Source: Opitutia bacterium
GTDB lineage: Bacteria > Verrucomicrobiota > Verrucomicrobiia > Opitutales > Opitutaceae
Direction of reading: 5' to 3'
Length of the DNA stretch: 64,000 nucleotides
NCBI GenBank assembly: GCA_947472765.1
Contig: CANJCM010000005.1
Span: 1 to 64,000, forward strand
Part shown: piece by piece, positions 9,258 to 22,965 of the stretch
How the letters are laid out: each line of letters starts with the position of its first letter
Position numbering within the stretch: the stretch's first letter is position 1
The notes under the pieces: generated by a model
Seen by the model: the letters and a program-made list of their open reading frames with translations, nothing else
The model's database searches: none
Told to the model about the DNA's origin: nothing
Program-made: the position numbers and the translations under genes

Positions 9258-10372
9258 GTTTTGGCCTGCCAATGTGCGTCAGTCAGACGCGAGTCCACGC
9301 GTTTTCCATTCGGCCGCGCCGGAGTGCCGGTGGCTTGGTGATAGATATCCTCGCGAAAAAGCCGGGCGGGCAGGCTTGCGTCTGTAGCGGCGGCGGTCGG
9401 GAGGAGCCCGGCGGCCCCGAGCGCGCGTTGAATCGAGGCCGCCTTCGCCGCCGTCGGAATGTTCGTGTCGCCGCCGCTGAAAAGATGGAAAGGAGCGACC
9501 GGTGTGGCTTGTCCCTTGCCGCAGTCGAATTTGCCACTGAGGGAAGGCGCGAGGGCGGCAACCGGAAGGTTTAGATAGCGCGACTGGGCCAGCATCTCGG
9601 CCAGTTTCTCGCGGTTCTGGAGATCGCTGCACCATGCGCCCGCCTGGATCAGGGCGGTCACGAGTGCCGTGGTTTCGCCCGCATTCCGGTCCGAGAACTC
9701 GCTGGTCGTGATCAGGACTTTCTCGATGTGCCCGGGTTGCTGGGTGGCACTGATGACCGGGCACCATCCGCCTCCGGATTGGACGGCCACGCTGTTCCAG
9801 GGTTCGGCGGTATAGTATCCGTCGAGCGTGGCGGCGGTGAGGTGCCGGTACATCTGGGCGGGTGGCACGACGACGATTCGGACCTCCCGCTCCGGGTCGA
9901 TGCCGGCACTGCGAAGCCAGTCGCGCAGGAGGAGATGGGCCGAGGAGAACAAAAATCCCACCCCGAACGTCACCGGTTCACGGCGCGCCCGGTGCTGCAA
10001 GTGGGTCCGGAGACTTGGGCCATCGCGAACACCCGCCGCCCACAGGCTTTGGGAAAGCGTGAGGGCGTTGCCGTGCAGGCTCAGGACGAGGGGAGTGCAA
10101 ACGGGGCAGGGGGTGCAACCGAGTCCGAGTTGGATGGACCACAGCAGGGGCGCCGGTGCCTGGGCGGCATCGAGTTCCCCGTAGATCAGCTTGTCGCGGA
10201 CGGTGGCCCAGCCGATCTCGCGGCGGAGTTCCACATTGAGACCTTGGCGGGCAAACAGGCCGAGTTCCTCGGCGGCCACCAGTGGCGCCGCATCGGTGAC
10301 AGCGAGAAATCCCAGTCGCAGGGAGCGGCCTCGGAGCGGGCGGGCGGGGGCCGGATTGGGCGGCTGCGGCAT
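9227..10372 (-). CDS. NrtA/CmpA/NasS-like substrate-binding protein
   Basis: A 381-residue periplasmic-binding-fold protein of the nitrate/bicarbonate-binding type (NMT1-like). The N-terminus LRLGFLAVTDAAPLVAAEELGLF is characteristic, as are GCTPCPVCTPLVLSLHGN and LDGYYTAEPWNS. There is no signal peptide or lipobox with the ATG at 10372, and no permease or ATPase gene nearby. It may therefore be a cytosolic ligand sensor like NasS rather than a transporter component; that is inference. The last nine residues are encoded by a REP-like palindrome. It is divergent from a LysR gene. Confidence 0.82.
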   Translation of the reverse strand: MPQPPNPAPARPLRGRSLRLGFLAVTDAAPLVAAEELGLFARQGLNVELRREIGWATVRDKLIYGELDAAQAPAPLLWSIQLGLGCTPCPVCTPLVLSLHGNALTLSQSLWAAGVRDGPSLRTHLQHRARREPVTFGVGFLFSSAHLLLRDWLRSAGIDPEREVRIVVVPPAQMYRHLTAATLDGYYTAEPWNSVAVQSGGGWCPVISATQQPGHIEKVLITTSEFSDRNAGETTALVTALIQAGAWCSDLQNREKLAEMLAQSRYLNLPVAALAPSLSGKFDCGKGQATPVAPFHLFSGGDTNIPTAAKAASIQRALGAAGLLPTAAATDASLPARLFREDIYHQATGTPARPNGKRVDSRLTDAHWQAKTPAAHAAGHD

Positions 10373-17317: not shown

Positions 17318-17980
17318 GTGAGGATCGTCATCGTCGAAGACCACCTGATGTTCCGGGAGGTACTGCGCAAGGTCTGTACGAACGAACTTCACCATGAAGT
17401 GGTCGGTGAGGCGGGTGACGGTCGCCGGGCGGTGGAACTGGCGGCGGAGCTCACTCCCGATCTCGTGCTGCTGGATTTGCATTTGCCGGGGCTCGACGGC
17501 TTCGGCGTGCTGGCGGAAATTCGAAAACAGGCGCCGCAGTTGCGGGTGCTGGTGCTGTCCTCGCATTGCGACGAGTATACCGTGTTCCAAGCCGAACGCG
17601 CGCATGTGAACGGCTTCGTCGACAAGAACACGAACACCGTGGCCACGCTGAAGCAGGCGATCGAGTCGGTGGGGGCGGGGCGGGTCTGGTTTTCCGATAC
17701 GTTCCTCCGGGTCAAGTCGGCCCGCCACCGGGATCCGAACTCGTTCGACAAGGTGCTCTCCGATCGGGAGCGGGCGGTGCTCGCGCTGCTTGGCGAGCCG
17801 ATGAATGACGCCGAGGCTGCAGAGCGGCTGGGGATCGCGCCGGAGACGGTCGAGAAGCACCGCTTTAATATTCTGCGGAAGCTCGATCTGGGGACGACAA
17901 CGGAGCTGGTCCGCTACGCCCGCGAACACGGCTTCACGCTGGCTGCCCGGCGGAGTGCGAGTGACTCAATCCTGCCCTGA
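17318..17980 (+). CDS. Response regulator, NarL/LuxR type
   Basis: A 220-residue two-component regulator starting with GTG. The receiver domain (residues 1-120) has the acidic pair ED at 7-8, the phosphoacceptor D53 in LLDLHLPGLDG and a K near 107. The LuxR-type helix-turn-helix occupies about 145-205 (LSDRERAVLALLGEPMNDAEAAERLGIAPETVEKH, two helices). Its 3' end overlaps the end of the sensor kinase gene on the other strand by 47 bases, so the two are convergent neighbours. The kinase has its own Hpt domain, so a phosphorelay to this regulator is plausible. Confidence 0.93.
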   Translation: MRIVIVEDHLMFREVLRKVCTNELHHEVVGEAGDGRRAVELAAELTPDLVLLDLHLPGLDGFGVLAEIRKQAPQLRVLVLSSHCDEYTVFQAERAHVNGFVDKNTNTVATLKQAIESVGAGRVWFSDTFLRVKSARHRDPNSFDKVLSDRERAVLALLGEPMNDAEAAERLGIAPETVEKHRFNILRKLDLGTTTELVRYAREHGFTLAARRSASDSILP

Positions 17981-20900
17981 CGCGGTCGACCTCGGCATCG
18001 ACCGAGCTCAAGAGGTCTGCTGCCATCGTTCCGCCCGCCGAGGCCTTTTCCAGCCGCACCGCCGCATGTTCCAGCGCGTGTGCCCCGATCATTTTGGCGT
18101 GTCCGACCAGACCGTGCGCGGCCTTGGCGAGTTCGGGGAGATCGCGGTTCCGGGCCAGGTCGGCGAGCCGGTGACGACTGGCTTCGAGAATGCCGAGATA
18201 GCGCTGCAGTTCGGCCGCCATGCCCTCCGGTGATCCGTCCGAGAGGTAGCGCAGCAGCGACAAATCATACCTCGGGGCTGGCAGGTCTGGCGGAATATGC
18301 ACGGAAGCGGCGGCGAGCTGGCGCCGGCCGGTGGCGAGGAGCACCTTGCGGAGTTTTTCCGGCGTCAGCGGTTTGCCGACGAACGCATCCATGCCCGACT
18401 TCAGGCAGAGCGCGCGATCTTCGGGCGTGCAGTACGCGGTGACGGCGAGAAGTACGGCCTGCAGGCCGTCGGACTCGATGCGGCGCATGCGCAGAGCCAC
18501 TTCAGTGCCATCCATGTCCGGCAGGTTGCGGTCCAGGAGGACAACATTGAACCGGCGCTCGGAAAAGAGTCGCAGGGCTTCCTCACCCGTGCGGGCCCGT
18601 TCGCAGGAGAGTCCCAGTTTCGCGAGGACCGCCGCGGCCGCCCAGGCATTGTAGTCGGTATCCTCGACCACGAGCACGGTCGTGTTCGGGAGATTCGGCG
18701 CGACAATATCTGGCGAGGCCGGCGCGATCGTTAGCGGCATCCGCACGAAGAATCGGGCGCCCCGGCCCGGTTCGCTTTCGACGCCGACGGAACCGCCCAT
18801 GATGGCGGCCAGCAGCCGGCACGCCGCCAGGCCCAGGCCGGCACCGGGGATGTCCTCGCTACGGGCACGGCTGAGGCGGGAGAACTTCGTGAACAAGGTC
18901 GCCTTGTCCGCGTCGGAAATGCCGGGACCTTCATCGGTCACCGAGTATTCGATCTCGCCGGGAAACTGGGACGACACGGCCGCCGAGAGCCGAATATGGC
19001 CACCGGCATACTTCAGGGCATTCGAAACAAAATTCACCAGGATCTGCTGAATCCGTCCGGCATCGCCGAGGACGCTGGCCGGCAGGGCCGGATCGGCCTC
19101 CACGAGCAGCACTGCGCCGCGCTCCGTCGTGTCGGCCTTGATGGTCGTCACGACCGAGCGGAGCAGCTCGTGCGGCGCATAGGGTCGCGGACGCAGTTCA
19201 ACGCGGCCCGCCTCGATACTGGCAAAGTCGAGCACGTCATCGACCAGGGTGGCAAGGTACGTGGTGCACTCGCGCAGCGTGGAAACGATTTCGCGCTGCC
19301 GGCGCTCGAGCTTCGTCTCTTCAAGGGCGAGGGCGAGGCCCACGATGCCGTTGAGCGGATTGCGAATGTCATGGCTCATGTTCGCCACGAATTGAGTCTT
19401 CGCGGCACTCGCCCGCTCCAACTCCTCCGTGCGAAACCGAACCTTGGCCTCCAGTTCCACATTGCGGCTCCGGAGCGACCGAACTCGCAGCCGGTAGAGT
19501 CCGTAGCCGAGCGGGACGAGCGCCATGATTCCGCCCAGGATCACCGGCCCCGTGCGCCACCACGGCGGCAGGACTTGAAACGTTAGCGTGGTCGGTTCAC
19601 TCGCGACGCCTGTTTCCGCCACGGCCCGAACTTGGAAGGTATACCGCCCGTCGCGCACGGCCGTAAGCGTCTGGCGCGAAGTCGGGTCGGCGGGAACCCA
19701 GTCGCGATCCACGCCGACGAAGCGGGTCTGAAGTCGGAGCGCGGAACGACGGGTGAAGTCCGGCTCAGCGAACTCGAACTCGATTGAGCGCGTCGAGTAG
19801 GGCAGCGGGCCGAGAATAGGCTGGGGGCGATCGTTATCCGAATTACGAGCGACGGCGCGGAGGAGCGGCGGCCGCGGAGGCGGCGCCGAAAGCCCGTGCG
19901 CGACGACATGCCGAAGGATTCCACTGGTGCCGCCGATCCAGAGCACGGTCGTGTCGGTGCCGGTTTTCTGCGCGTAGATGGTTTGCGGGGTGCCGATGCT
20001 CGCCAGCCCTTCGACCGAATGAGAACGCCAGGTGGCCACGCCGGATTCGAGGGAGATGGCACCGATGCAAGGAGCGAGCCCGGCTCCGGTGTGGATCATC
20101 CAGATCACGCCGTCGACCGTGGGCTCGGAGGCCGCGACCAACGTACGGTTCGGGTAATGCAGAATCGGTTCGAACTTGGACGCGCTGCCGGCAGGCAGGC
20201 GCCATCCCGCCGGCGAATAGAGCAGGTAAACGGAACCATCGGCCCCCTGGCGCGCGATGCCCTTGCCGTCGATTTCAGTCCGGCTGAGCAGCGGAGCCGC
20301 CGGGACCGGACGAACCGGACCCTGGGCGCCGGGTGTCGCCATGAAGATCCCGTGGGTTTCGGTCCCCAGCCAGAGGCGACGGTGCGTGTCCTCGGCGATG
20401 GACCACGCGCTGTCGGGGAGATCGGAGACCAGCAAGCGAGGCGGTTCAGTGCCATTCCGGAGAACAACACCGCGGCCGTCCGCGATTAACAGCCGGCCAG
20501 GCCGGGGCTCGTGGAGGGCGAAGGTGTCGTGAGGAGAGGAATGGTAGAGGCTGACCTGTTCGTTTCGGAACGCTTTGACGGACTGCAGTCCTGCGGCGAG
20601 CAGTCCCTGAGACGTCCCTTTCAGCGCGGAAATATGTTCGTGCAGCGAACTGACCGATTCGAACCGTCGTTCATCGGCGGCCAGCCGATAAACCGAGTCA
20701 TCCGTGGCTGCAAAAATCGCCGTGCCGTCGCCCGCAATTTGGTGAAACGGCTTTTTCGGCAGTGCCGCTCGCGAGTCATAAAGACTCGAGGCCGAAGCGA
20801 CCGATATGCGGCTGATATGGGTGTACGAAGTCGCCCAAAGCTGCTGATCGCGGTCGACAAAGAGCCAGTTGATCAGCCGGGTCGGCAGGCCATCGTCCTG

Positions 20901-21764
20901 ACCCAGGATTCGATCGAGCGAGCCGTCACGCCGCAGCAATACCACACCGGCACGCAGCGTTCCGACCGCCAGCCGGCCGTCAGGTAAGCGGGTGGCGTGG
21001 GTCGGAGCAGCCCCGGCCAGGATCCTGCTCGATTCACCTTGGATTTGCCGCAGCTCGCCGCCGGCAAGAAGATAGAGGCCTCGATTCGTAACGATGAACC
21101 ATTCGGGCCCCCACTGCTCGATCCAGAAGACGCCCATGCCGCCGAGCTTCTCTGCCGGTAAGAACAGTCTGGGTCCCCGTTCGTCGAGCTCGTAAAGCCC
21201 CGTGGAACCGTGCTGAAGAAAAATTCTGGCCCCAGACCGAAGTGCCCGCAAACGCCGCGTACTAGGCATGGGCCAAACTCGGAATGAAGCGCCGTCCCAG
21301 GCGAGAATCCTTTCGTCAGCGACAAAGATCGCTCCCTTCGCCGTCGCGAAGGCATTCCAGACTTCTCCAAATGTCGCGTGTTCGGACGGAACTTGGGAGT
21401 TGAGTGAATGGTAAAGCCATTCGCCAACGGCATTGCGATCAAACCATCCGATTTCACCAATGGCGCCGGCCCAAAGACGTTCACCGTTGGCAGAAAAATC
21501 GAGCGCGCGAATTGCGTGGGCACCATTCATTGCGGTCGAGCGCCAGCGATCGCCATCGAAACTCACCAAATCCCGCGCTCCGAAGTGCAGTACACCGTCC
21601 TTGTCCTGAACCGCGATCCAAGTCGTCGGATCGGCTCCAATTTCATCCCCGGAATAGGCGGTCACCAATGGAAATCCGGGCGTTGGTGCCGCTGCCGTCA
21701 GATCCTGAAACGCCAGTACGGCCGCCAGGAAGAGCAGGGGGCGGCCTATCGCGTGCTGGAGCAT
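17934..21764 (-). CDS. Hybrid sensor histidine kinase with propeller sensor, receiver and Hpt
   Basis: A 1276-residue protein combining a full phosphorelay. Residues about 1-28 form a signal sequence; about 30-640 hold repeats of the two-component propeller type; about 650-735 resemble the Y_Y_Y domain; one membrane segment lies near 740-765 (GPVILGGIMALVPLGYGLY). The HisKA box has H798 in NMSHDIRNPLNG, followed by an HATPase domain (GPGISDADK, GLGLAACRLLA), a receiver with D1078 in LLDRNLPDMDG and a C-terminal Hpt with H1217 in AAHGLVGHAK. This layout senses extracellular ligands in Bacteroidetes and Verrucomicrobia. The ATG at 21764 is preferred over a TTG nine bases upstream. It is divergent from the peptide-YcaO pair. 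Confidence 0.94.
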   Translation of the reverse strand: MLQHAIGRPLLFLAAVLAFQDLTAAAPTPGFPLVTAYSGDEIGADPTTWIAVQDKDGVLHFGARDLVSFDGDRWRSTAMNGAHAIRALDFSANGERLWAGAIGEIGWFDRNAVGEWLYHSLNSQVPSEHATFGEVWNAFATAKGAIFVADERILAWDGASFRVWPMPSTRRLRALRSGARIFLQHGSTGLYELDERGPRLFLPAEKLGGMGVFWIEQWGPEWFIVTNRGLYLLAGGELRQIQGESSRILAGAAPTHATRLPDGRLAVGTLRAGVVLLRRDGSLDRILGQDDGLPTRLINWLFVDRDQQLWATSYTHISRISVASASSLYDSRAALPKKPFHQIAGDGTAIFAATDDSVYRLAADERRFESVSSLHEHISALKGTSQGLLAAGLQSVKAFRNEQVSLYHSSPHDTFALHEPRPGRLLIADGRGVVLRNGTEPPRLLVSDLPDSAWSIAEDTHRRLWLGTETHGIFMATPGAQGPVRPVPAAPLLSRTEIDGKGIARQGADGSVYLLYSPAGWRLPAGSASKFEPILHYPNRTLVAASEPTVDGVIWMIHTGAGLAPCIGAISLESGVATWRSHSVEGLASIGTPQTIYAQKTGTDTTVLWIGGTSGILRHVVAHGLSAPPPRPPLLRAVARNSDNDRPQPILGPLPYSTRSIEFEFAEPDFTRRSALRLQTRFVGVDRDWVPADPTSRQTLTAVRDGRYTFQVRAVAETGVASEPTTLTFQVLPPWWRTGPVILGGIMALVPLGYGLYRLRVRSLRSRNVELEAKVRFRTEELERASAAKTQFVANMSHDIRNPLNGIVGLALALEETKLERRQREIVSTLRECTTYLATLVDDVLDFASIEAGRVELRPRPYAPHELLRSVVTTIKADTTERGAVLLVEADPALPASVLGDAGRIQQILVNFVSNALKYAGGHIRLSAAVSSQFPGEIEYSVTDEGPGISDADKATLFTKFSRLSRARSEDIPGAGLGLAACRLLAAIMGGSVGVESEPGRGARFFVRMPLTIAPASPDIVAPNLPNTTVLVVEDTDYNAWAAAAVLAKLGLSCERARTGEEALRLFSERRFNVVLLDRNLPDMDGTEVALRMRRIESDGLQAVLLAVTAYCTPEDRALCLKSGMDAFVGKPLTPEKLRKVLLATGRRQLAAASVHIPPDLPAPRYDLSLLRYLSDGSPEGMAAELQRYLGILEASRHRLADLARNRDLPELAKAAHGLVGHAKMIGAHALEHAAVRLEKASAGGTMAADLLSSVDAEVDRVRAGLSHSHSAGQPA

Positions 21765-21819
21765 GGGTGACAATTAATTTACTGGCGCGGTTGCAGGTCG
21801 ATGGCGATGGGAATTTTGG

Positions 21820-21837
21820 CTACCGGAAATCCGGTAG
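21820..21837. promoter_or_regulatory. 18-bp palindromic operator candidate between kinase and peptide gene
   Basis: CTACCGGA (21820-21827) and TCCGGTAG (21830-21837) form a perfect 8-bp inverted repeat around two As. It is in the middle of the 119-base gap between the divergent kinase and peptide genes, 46 bases before the peptide start. Its size suits a dimeric regulator such as a LuxR-type protein; the regulator gene at 17318 is the nearest candidate. Confidence 0.55.
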
Positions 21838-21883: not shown

Positions 21884-22066
21884 ATGAAAACCAGCAAACG
21901 TCTCGTCTTCGGTCTTCTCTCCAGCTTGCTGCTCGCAGTGGGCTTTGTTCGCGCGGCGGATCGCCTCGATCCCGTCCTTAAGGGTGCAAACGGTTCGAGT
22001 GACACCACGATGAGTGCGGCCGACGGCTGTACCGCCCAGTGCTGGGCAATCGACGACGGCAGCTGA
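21884..22066 (+). CDS. Putative precursor peptide with Sec-type signal, 60 aa
   Basis: A 60-residue peptide directly upstream of a YcaO gene. Residues 1-24 look like a Sec signal: MKTSKR, a hydrophobic LVFGLLSSLLLAVGF core and a VRA cleavage site before AD. The remaining 36 residues are polar and rich in small, hydroxyl and acidic residues, ending DGCTAQCWAIDDGS with two cysteines (C49, C53) spaced C-x3-C beside T50 and W54. That composition, with Cys, Ser and Thr near the C-terminus, is what a YcaO enzyme would cyclise or thioamidate. A GAAGG ribosome site precedes the ATG. I infer a ribosomally made, modified and exported peptide; it matches no precursor family I know. Confidence 0.6.
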   Translation: MKTSKRLVFGLLSSLLLAVGFVRAADRLDPVLKGANGSSDTTMSAADGCTAQCWAIDDGS

Positions 22067-22077
22067 TTTCCCCCTTC

Positions 22078-22965
22078 ATGCTCAGTCTCGCTTCCCTGCG
22101 TTACCGCAACGTGCTCGCCGAACATGGCGGGCCCGTGGAGCGGATTGAGACCGGTGAGTTTCCCGTGCGCGGTCGGCGGGTGGTCCAGGCCAATGCCCGG
22201 CTCATCCCCGGGCTGACGCGTCAGCGTCAGCTCAGCATTTACAGCAGTGCTGACGGCACGGGAACTCATCCCGTCGCCTCGATCGCCCGTCACAAGGCGA
22301 TCTCGGAAGCGATGGAGCGTTGGGCTTTCCATGCGGTGGTCAGCTCGGAACGCGCCGAGGAATTTGGCTTTGATCTGGATCCCTCATCCAACGGCATGTC
22401 CGCCTTCCCCGGACTGCTGCGCCGGCAGGCCCGCCACGCGGCGCTGCTCGAAGCGGTCGAGCGGTACAGCCTGATGGCTTGGTGGGAGGGAATGGTGGAT
22501 GGTCAACTTTTCGAAACGGACTGGCCCGGAGTTTCCGCAGTCGCGATCAACGGGCCGTTCGGCGGTGTGACCGTCGTGGCCTTTGCCCGGACCGAGTGGG
22601 GCGGCTACGCCTACGGCCACGCGGCCGAGGAGTCGTTCAGCGGCGCCTGCGAACGCGCGATCGTCGAACTCGCACGGCATGAGTGGGTCCTGCGCTCGAA
22701 GTGGCTCGCATTCGCCGCCGGCGAAAAAGTGAAGCCCACGTGCATCTTCGAACAGCGCAGCTTGTTTTTTGCGACCGAAGCGGGTCACGAATTATTTCTC
22801 GAGCGGCTCGGCCGCAAGGCCACCGGCTCCGCGCCTCGCCCCACGGTGATTTGCGATCGTGATATTCCCGGTCCCTGGGACGACTACGCGACCGTCTGGC
22901 GGTTCGCCCTGCGTCCGATTTCCGACGGCTACATCCACGGCGGCGAAGGTTACTTCTTTCTGTAG
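22078..22965 (+). CDS. Stand-alone YcaO-domain protein
   Basis: A 295-residue protein with the ATP-binding pattern of the YcaO superfamily, which activates peptide backbone amides with ATP to form azolines, thioamides or amidines. Visible blocks are SSADGTGTHPVASIARHKAI then EAMER (residues 77-81), DPSSNGMSAF (101-110) and ALLEAVER (122-129). The repeated E-A-x-E-R pattern supplies the ATP and magnesium ligands in the family. The chain is shorter than most members (about 400 or more) and lacks the C-terminal PxPxP tail, and no TfuA, E1-like or dehydrogenase gene is nearby. The ATG at 22078 lies 11 bases after the peptide stop; an earlier ATG would overlap the peptide gene. Modification of the upstream peptide is inferred from linkage. 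Confidence 0.8.
   Translation: MLSLASLRYRNVLAEHGGPVERIETGEFPVRGRRVVQANARLIPGLTRQRQLSIYSSADGTGTHPVASIARHKAISEAMERWAFHAVVSSERAEEFGFDLDPSSNGMSAFPGLLRRQARHAALLEAVERYSLMAWWEGMVDGQLFETDWPGVSAVAINGPFGGVTVVAFARTEWGGYAYGHAAEESFSGACERAIVELARHEWVLRSKWLAFAAGEKVKPTCIFEQRSLFFATEAGHELFLERLGRKATGSAPRPTVICDRDIPGPWDDYATVWRFALRPISDGYIHGGEGYFFL

Follow-up and report, generated by a model that had tools for sequence, protein, structure and literature searches.

The window, by which we mean the whole stretch of 64,000 nucleotides analyzed here, carries a cassette that looks like an undescribed quorum-sensing-like signaling system. It comprises a small, putatively exported peptide, a YcaO enzyme as its likely modifier, and a sensor kinase with a response regulator, both dedicated to the cassette. 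The most convincing overall interpretation, which we regard as likely, is that of a Sec-exported, YcaO-modified autoinducing peptide sensed by the cassette's own kinase. Five lines of evidence carry this interpretation: the co-occurrence and order of the genes, the fold and active-site residues of the YcaO protein, the hypervariability and repeats of the peptide cores, the conservation and genomic recurrence of an operator, and the mosaic structure of a block spanning the sensor, the peptide, and part of YcaO.

The peptide and the adjacent YcaO enzyme

The precursor gene (positions 21884–22066, plus strand, ATG start) encodes 60 amino acids and was recognized by leader and peptide profiles and by comparison with the loci of relatives. 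It is followed after 11 bp by the gene of a stand-alone YcaO enzyme of 295 amino acids (22078–22965, plus strand), whose start (MLSLA...) is backed by homologues beginning at the same point. Both frames, and the 11-base spacing between a signal-peptide ORF and a YcaO gene described in the first-pass annotation, were confirmed. That annotation proposed a two-gene system; the peptide–YcaO pair stands, but the proposal was incomplete and left the adjoining kinase (17934–21773, minus strand) and regulator (17318–17980, plus strand) unconnected.

The leaders are conserved across the family, and the C-terminal cores vary strongly. Judged by its sequence features, the leader of the window peptide (MKTSKRLVFGLLSSLLLAVGFVRAA, 21884–21958, plus strand) looks like a Sec-type signal with a predicted cleavage site. 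Among the 47 leaders of relatives, an [AVST]xA site directly follows the hydrophobic stretch in 39, the N-region is net positive in 45, and a lipobox occurs in none. The core contains the motif C49-T-A-Q-C53 (22028–22042, plus strand), that is, a C-x3-C pair, and C49 lies in the near-invariant column of the family alignment, where Cys reaches 90% or more. A Cys is found within the last 25 amino acids of 43/47 peptides; a few cores (L055, L060, and L081) have none, and Cys therefore cannot be the sole target. Tandem core repeats were observed in several loci (two copies in L042 and L054, three in L083, and four in L066), and two precursor genes are present in each of L056 and L087; such features are typical of precursors from which cores are excised. 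Neither Pfam nor NCBIfam contains a family for the peptides. A divergent precursor subgroup (L080–L082) has repeated xWEQPPGVPPxPGGGIIIK-like cores with almost no Cys, next to the same YcaO and kinase. At L060, a second leader-type peptide downstream of YcaO (9775–9987) consists of nearly the leader alone (MKNILIFILGLLSTFLLSIGLSDAAARLDPVSHDKDLQSFL).

The YcaO assignment is weak by sequence and firm by modeled structure. The Pfam YcaO model matched the protein with 28.6 bits against a cutoff of 25.7, and NCBIfam SagD reached 31.5 bits, well short of the cutoff of 219; no specific family for it exists in either collection. A search of the window's own genome with the Pfam YcaO family missed this gene; members as divergent as this one are probably obscured by E-values computed over a whole genome. 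Searches of PDB sequences with the single protein and with a profile returned no match, and fold comparison alone succeeded. The AlphaFold model, built from 49 relatives (pLDDT 93.7), resembled McbD (Z 17.5), the YcaO of M. kandleri (Z 16.5), LynD (Z 16.4), and E. coli YcaO (Z 12.7); only YcaO structures scored above Z 9 in the comparison with the PDB, with a clear fall-off after them. Thus, the domain call of the first-pass annotation is borne out by a Pfam score above the cutoff and by structural matches to YcaO proteins. Residues E77, E80, E125, E128, and R129, representing the ATP/Mg-binding acidic residues of both SxxxE..ER-type motifs, are kept in 45–49 of the 49 sequences. E125, E128, and R129 align to E199, E202, and R203 of the E. 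coli protein, and E77 and E80 correspond to its E75 and E78 by motif. The position equivalent to E. coli E191 is Gln in 37/49 sequences. Azoline-forming YcaOs carry a C-terminal PxPxP; the present family lacks it and ends in [YF]FF[WL].

Homologous YcaO proteins of about 295 amino acids were found in 48 of 189 related genomes, covering 30 genera with 35–83% identity. Class- and phylum-wide profile searches detected the family nowhere outside the window's order, and the cassette is spread across this one order of soil and water Verrucomicrobia. For comparison of gene neighborhoods, 54 loci were retrieved, and the leader profile showed a small peptide gene adjoining nearly all of their YcaO genes. 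In an independent search of 115 whole genomes, the peptide profile was positive in 28, all of them YcaO carriers (Fisher p = 8e-23), and negative in 83/83 genomes without YcaO; the four carriers that it missed have leaders that are too divergent. Since every genome matched by the profile carries YcaO, the peptide ORF is more than a chance frame.

Clustering of all the flanking genes revealed two-component genes as the sole other conserved component. The remaining flanking genes were not common to the loci, by which ordinary synteny was rejected. TfuA, ThiF, dehydrogenase, and radical SAM partners, reported as missing in the first-pass annotation, are not conserved neighbors in the relatives either, and TfuA is absent from 10 carrier genomes. 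No other enzyme recurs beside the pair over about 50 loci, and no MNIO or DUF2063-type partner is among the conserved neighbors. In L090, L085, and L087, the YcaO gene found next to a leader peptide or kinase is partial or shortened and is probably a decaying, split, or contig-end copy. The earlier suggestion that the peptide is the YcaO substrate gained support from these comparisons: we looked for related YcaO genes without a neighboring peptide gene and for an unconserved frame, and found instead peptide genes beside related YcaO genes in other genomes and a frame that is kept together with a near-invariant core Cys. Thus, the peptide and YcaO very probably constitute a RiPP precursor–enzyme pair.

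The two-component system and its proposed operator

According to Pfam and the structural model, the hybrid sensor histidine kinase consists of a signal peptide, a periplasmic double propeller with a Y_Y_Y domain, a transmembrane segment, and HisKA, HATPase, REC, and Hpt domains. Its periplasmic sensor half (19464–21773, minus strand), which diverges rapidly in pairwise and block comparisons, is the proposed receptor; the model of this half (pLDDT 91) has a fold like that of the double-propeller periplasmic domains in BT4663 and BT3049. A divergently oriented hybrid kinase was located by script just upstream of the peptide in 47/54 loci. Most of the loci lacking it are contig ends, and L062, with no kinase nearby, is a real exception. 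The regulator combines REC with a GerE/LuxR-type HTH (Response_reg, 82 bits; GerE, 45 bits) and is convergent with the kinase, the 3' ends of the two genes overlapping. Convergent LuxR-type regulators were detected by script in 31 loci and by eye in several more. Orthologues of the dedicated regulator with 60–70% identity occur in the carriers G001, G018, G022, and G048, and the non-carriers of the genus have only paralogues of about 40%. The kinase and the regulator belong to the same conserved unit as the peptide and YcaO, and they point to peptide signaling and not to metal binding. Bufferin-like metal binding was considered and rejected: the CxxxC motifs fit, but metal genes are not recurrent and the cores are too variable.

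Additional two-component genes were observed around some loci. In several of them, the gene after YcaO encodes either a REC protein or a second PAS/REC kinase; in L043, L045, L042, and L049, a REC-PAS-kinase-REC gene lies immediately downstream of YcaO and may be an operon member. Furthermore, L200 (G034:C18, 5982–10788) contains an orphan kinase–regulator pair of the same type, with 34% and 47% identity and no peptide or YcaO nearby, which is possibly an orphan receiver of the signal.

The proposed site of the response regulator is a palindromic operator, TACCGGAAATCCGGTA (21821–21836, no strand assigned), which ends 47 bp upstream of the peptide ATG. The same or nearly the same palindrome is found 47–49 bp before the ATG in 11/13 loci of the core clade. 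In the clade of L072–L076 and in L079 and L084, the palindromes are different and share the TACC-N8-GGTA frame; in most of the remaining loci of distant clades, none was found upstream of the peptide. The 7-2-7 layout and TAC half-ends are reminiscent of NarL-type sites. The window's own genome contains seven perfect copies and an eighth that deviates at one position. A chance repeat was rejected as an explanation, the reversed-pattern control giving 0 copies in this genome and 0–1 elsewhere. Two or more sites are present in 8/11 core carriers versus 4/104 other genomes (p = 1.2e-7 over 115 genomes, which are related and thus non-independent).

Single-domain REC proteins recur between genomes among the genes after operator sites. 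A secreted S8 subtilase follows such sites in three genomes, and restriction-enzyme-like genes, named by reading only, also do so in three. The recognition helix of the regulator differs between clades that have different palindromes; these sequence differences fit regulator–palindrome binding without proving it. Autoinduction via the palindrome is, in our estimation, fairly probable. In G018 (L155–L169), 24 operator sites were counted; the genes behind them code for REC proteins, a kinase, and a secreted subtilase, and one is restriction-enzyme-like. G010 (L190–L194) has five operator-like sites, one of them before a REC-only gene, and neither YcaO, nor the peptide, nor the dedicated regulator was detected in it; the cassette may have been lost, or the assembly may have a gap.

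Divergence of the sensor, peptide, and YcaO N-terminus

The components of the cassette diverge at different rates. Between close pairs, identity was 69% for YcaO, 68% for the kinase core, 53% for the leader, 39% for the sensor, and 20% for the peptide core. In a small control set of unlinked kinases with the same architecture, sensors compared at a similar kinase identity tended to be closer to each other, although not in every case. The clearest picture was provided by G065 and G098, which belong to the same genus. Their DNA is about 0.9 identical in the regulator, in the kinase core, and in the downstream region, and identity falls to about 0.5–0.6 within a stretch that begins 2.55 kb ahead of the YcaO start and extends about 0.15 kb beyond it. 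The divergent block of 2.7 kb covers the sensor part of the kinase, the stretch between the genes, the peptide, and approximately the first 60 codons of YcaO; the N-terminal part of YcaO is 51% identical between the two genomes, and the remainder 92%. Such a sharp swap was observed in this one pair only, and other close pairs show the trend.

By analogy, a block of receptor, ligand, and modifier start mirrors the exchange of agr-type pherotypes. The YcaO N-terminal region (approximately 60 residues; 22078–22257, plus strand, in the window) is likely the precursor reader because it lies inside the exchanged block. The exchange predicts that one and the same peptide is read both by this region and by the sensor of the kinase.

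Proposed mechanism and relation to known systems

We infer modification and its chemistry, export, ligand–receptor contact, and operator binding as steps of the following scheme. The cassette would produce a short precursor that bears a Sec-type signal peptide. The adjoining stand-alone YcaO would then modify the backbone of the variable C-terminal core using ATP, most often at the conserved Cys. After export by Sec, signal peptidase and probably a second protease would trim the precursor, and the modified core would build up outside the cytoplasm. There, the double-propeller sensor that the divergent hybrid kinase exposes to the periplasm may recognize it, and the kinase would pass the signal via REC and Hpt to the LuxR-type response regulator dedicated to it. 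Binding of the regulator to the TACC-N8-GGTA palindrome before the peptide gene would close an autoinduction loop, and the regulator may also bind further copies before other genes. That the peptide is the ligand of the linked kinase appears likely. Regarding the chemistry, an azoline at the core Cys is a tentative first guess, with thioamidation and amidine formation as alternatives. A product other than azoline or thioamide seems rather unlikely, and a thioamide somewhat more so. E. coli YcaO provides a precedent for thioamidation without TfuA (PMC13063428).

Several observations count against the signaling reading. Glycan sensors such as BT4663 are the best-known proteins with this sensor fold, and the ligand could therefore be a carbohydrate. 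Sensors outpace kinase cores in divergence in unlinked kinases as well, the control set being small. In addition, the operator was not found upstream of the peptide in most distant clades, G010 has sites without a detected cassette, and L062 has no kinase nearby. The kinase might thus sense an environmental cue, for example, a glycan, and induce a YcaO-modified exported RiPP with another job (metal binding, competition, or an envelope function) that is not its ligand. The match of the sensor to heparin-sensing BT4663 and the subtilase or restriction-like proteins encoded by some operator targets agree with this, but the sensor, peptide, and YcaO N-terminal part were exchanged together as one block, no carbohydrate-utilization genes recur beside the loci, and the core variability matches that of pherotypes; we therefore regard it as improbable.

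Two further explanations were given considerably less weight. An antimicrobial RiPP that autoinduces via the kinase, with signaling being secondary, would explain the variable cores and has an established precedent in nisin and NisRK. It is nevertheless very unlikely, as there is no conserved immunity or transporter gene, the cores are of small size, many of them being polar or acidic, and the operator targets are regulators and not immunity genes. Marginally less probable still, the peptide may be a small membrane or periplasmic accessory of the kinase, with YcaO modifying another protein. The leader is indeed conserved to the degree of a functional domain, and E. coli YcaO modifies a protein, uL16, with no peptide gene adjoining (PMC13063428); tandem repeats confined to the C-terminal core, the near-invariant Cys, and the exclusive co-occurrence of the peptide with YcaO argue against this role. 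The autoinducing, YcaO-modified peptide remains the preferred interpretation.

In its proposed mode of action, the cassette is like agr or nisin autoinduction, yet it is a member of neither. As in agr (AgrBDCA) and ComQXPA, a small precursor, a modifying protein, a sensor kinase, and a regulator form one cassette. The agr locus is autoregulated, as is proposed for the present cassette, and its hypervariable block spans the sensor, the peptide, and the substrate-recognizing part of the modifier; a co-varying block of sensor, ligand, and modifier is likewise present here, with G065 versus G098 as the one clear pair. Unlike the membrane protease AgrB or the prenyltransferase ComQ, the modifier here is a soluble YcaO, and the Sec-type signal of the precursor, the periplasmic double-propeller sensor, and the diderm verrucomicrobial host are further differences. 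Neither an AgrB membrane endopeptidase nor a multi-pass AgrC sensor is in the conserved unit. In the nisin system (NisA-NisRK), the RiPP is sensed by the adjacent two-component system, which activates its own operon. The proximity of a RiPP to a two-component system is common to both, whereas lanthipeptide chemistry, a dedicated ABC exporter, immunity genes, and a LanP protease were not seen here. The sensor shares its two propellers and Y_Y_Y domain with BT4663-like hybrid systems. Those have a fused AraC-type output; here, there are an Hpt domain and a separate LuxR-type regulator, linked to a peptide and YcaO and not to glycan-degradation genes.

Among RiPPs, the MNIO-modified bufferins also have a Cys-containing precursor in which a Sec signal peptide replaces the ordinary leader, but the enzyme here is YcaO, a two-component system is dedicated to it, and there are no recurrent metal-handling genes or MNIO neighbor. 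Bottromycin and streptamidine resemble the present case in that the YcaO acting on a nearby precursor has no ThiF/RRE partner, whether fused or adjacent. They differ in that they belong to a different phylum and have no reported linked sensor kinase, and no other tailoring genes recur here; to our knowledge, their precursors are not Sec-exported and lack the present leader. In contrast to LAP/TOMM pathways of the SagD type, no E1/ocin-ThiF (RRE) or dehydrogenase is a conserved neighbor and PxPxP is absent, and unlike thioamitides and YcaO-TfuA pathways, the cassette has no TfuA partner. Within the reach of our searches, we know of no described YcaO pathway with a Sec-exported precursor. Sec signals in bacterial RiPP precursors have been termed highly unusual and were experimentally shown for bufferins only (PMC12452194). 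The stand-alone YcaOs of Actinobacteria were systematically mined, and the present arrangement was not seen in the passages of that work that were consulted (PMC8442711).

Literature searches, with subscription journals mostly outside their reach, returned no paper linking the Opitutaceae YcaO to a peptide system and no description of peptide pheromones in Verrucomicrobia; nor did those on YcaO with signal peptides and those on related two-component systems yield any description of the present system. It is reasonably probable that Verrucomicrobia use a form of peptide-pheromone quorum sensing in which the signal is a Sec-exported RiPP produced by a stand-alone YcaO, strain-specific pherotypes are swapped as a cassette of sensor, peptide, and YcaO N-terminus, and a genome-wide regulon is marked by TACCGGAATTCCGGTA. 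If true, this would bring together a pheromone produced by YcaO, a Sec leader by which YcaO also recognizes its substrate, and a kinase whose double propeller acts as a peptide receptor. It would represent a new RiPP class with one modifying enzyme, together with cell–cell communication in a major group of soil and freshwater bacteria.
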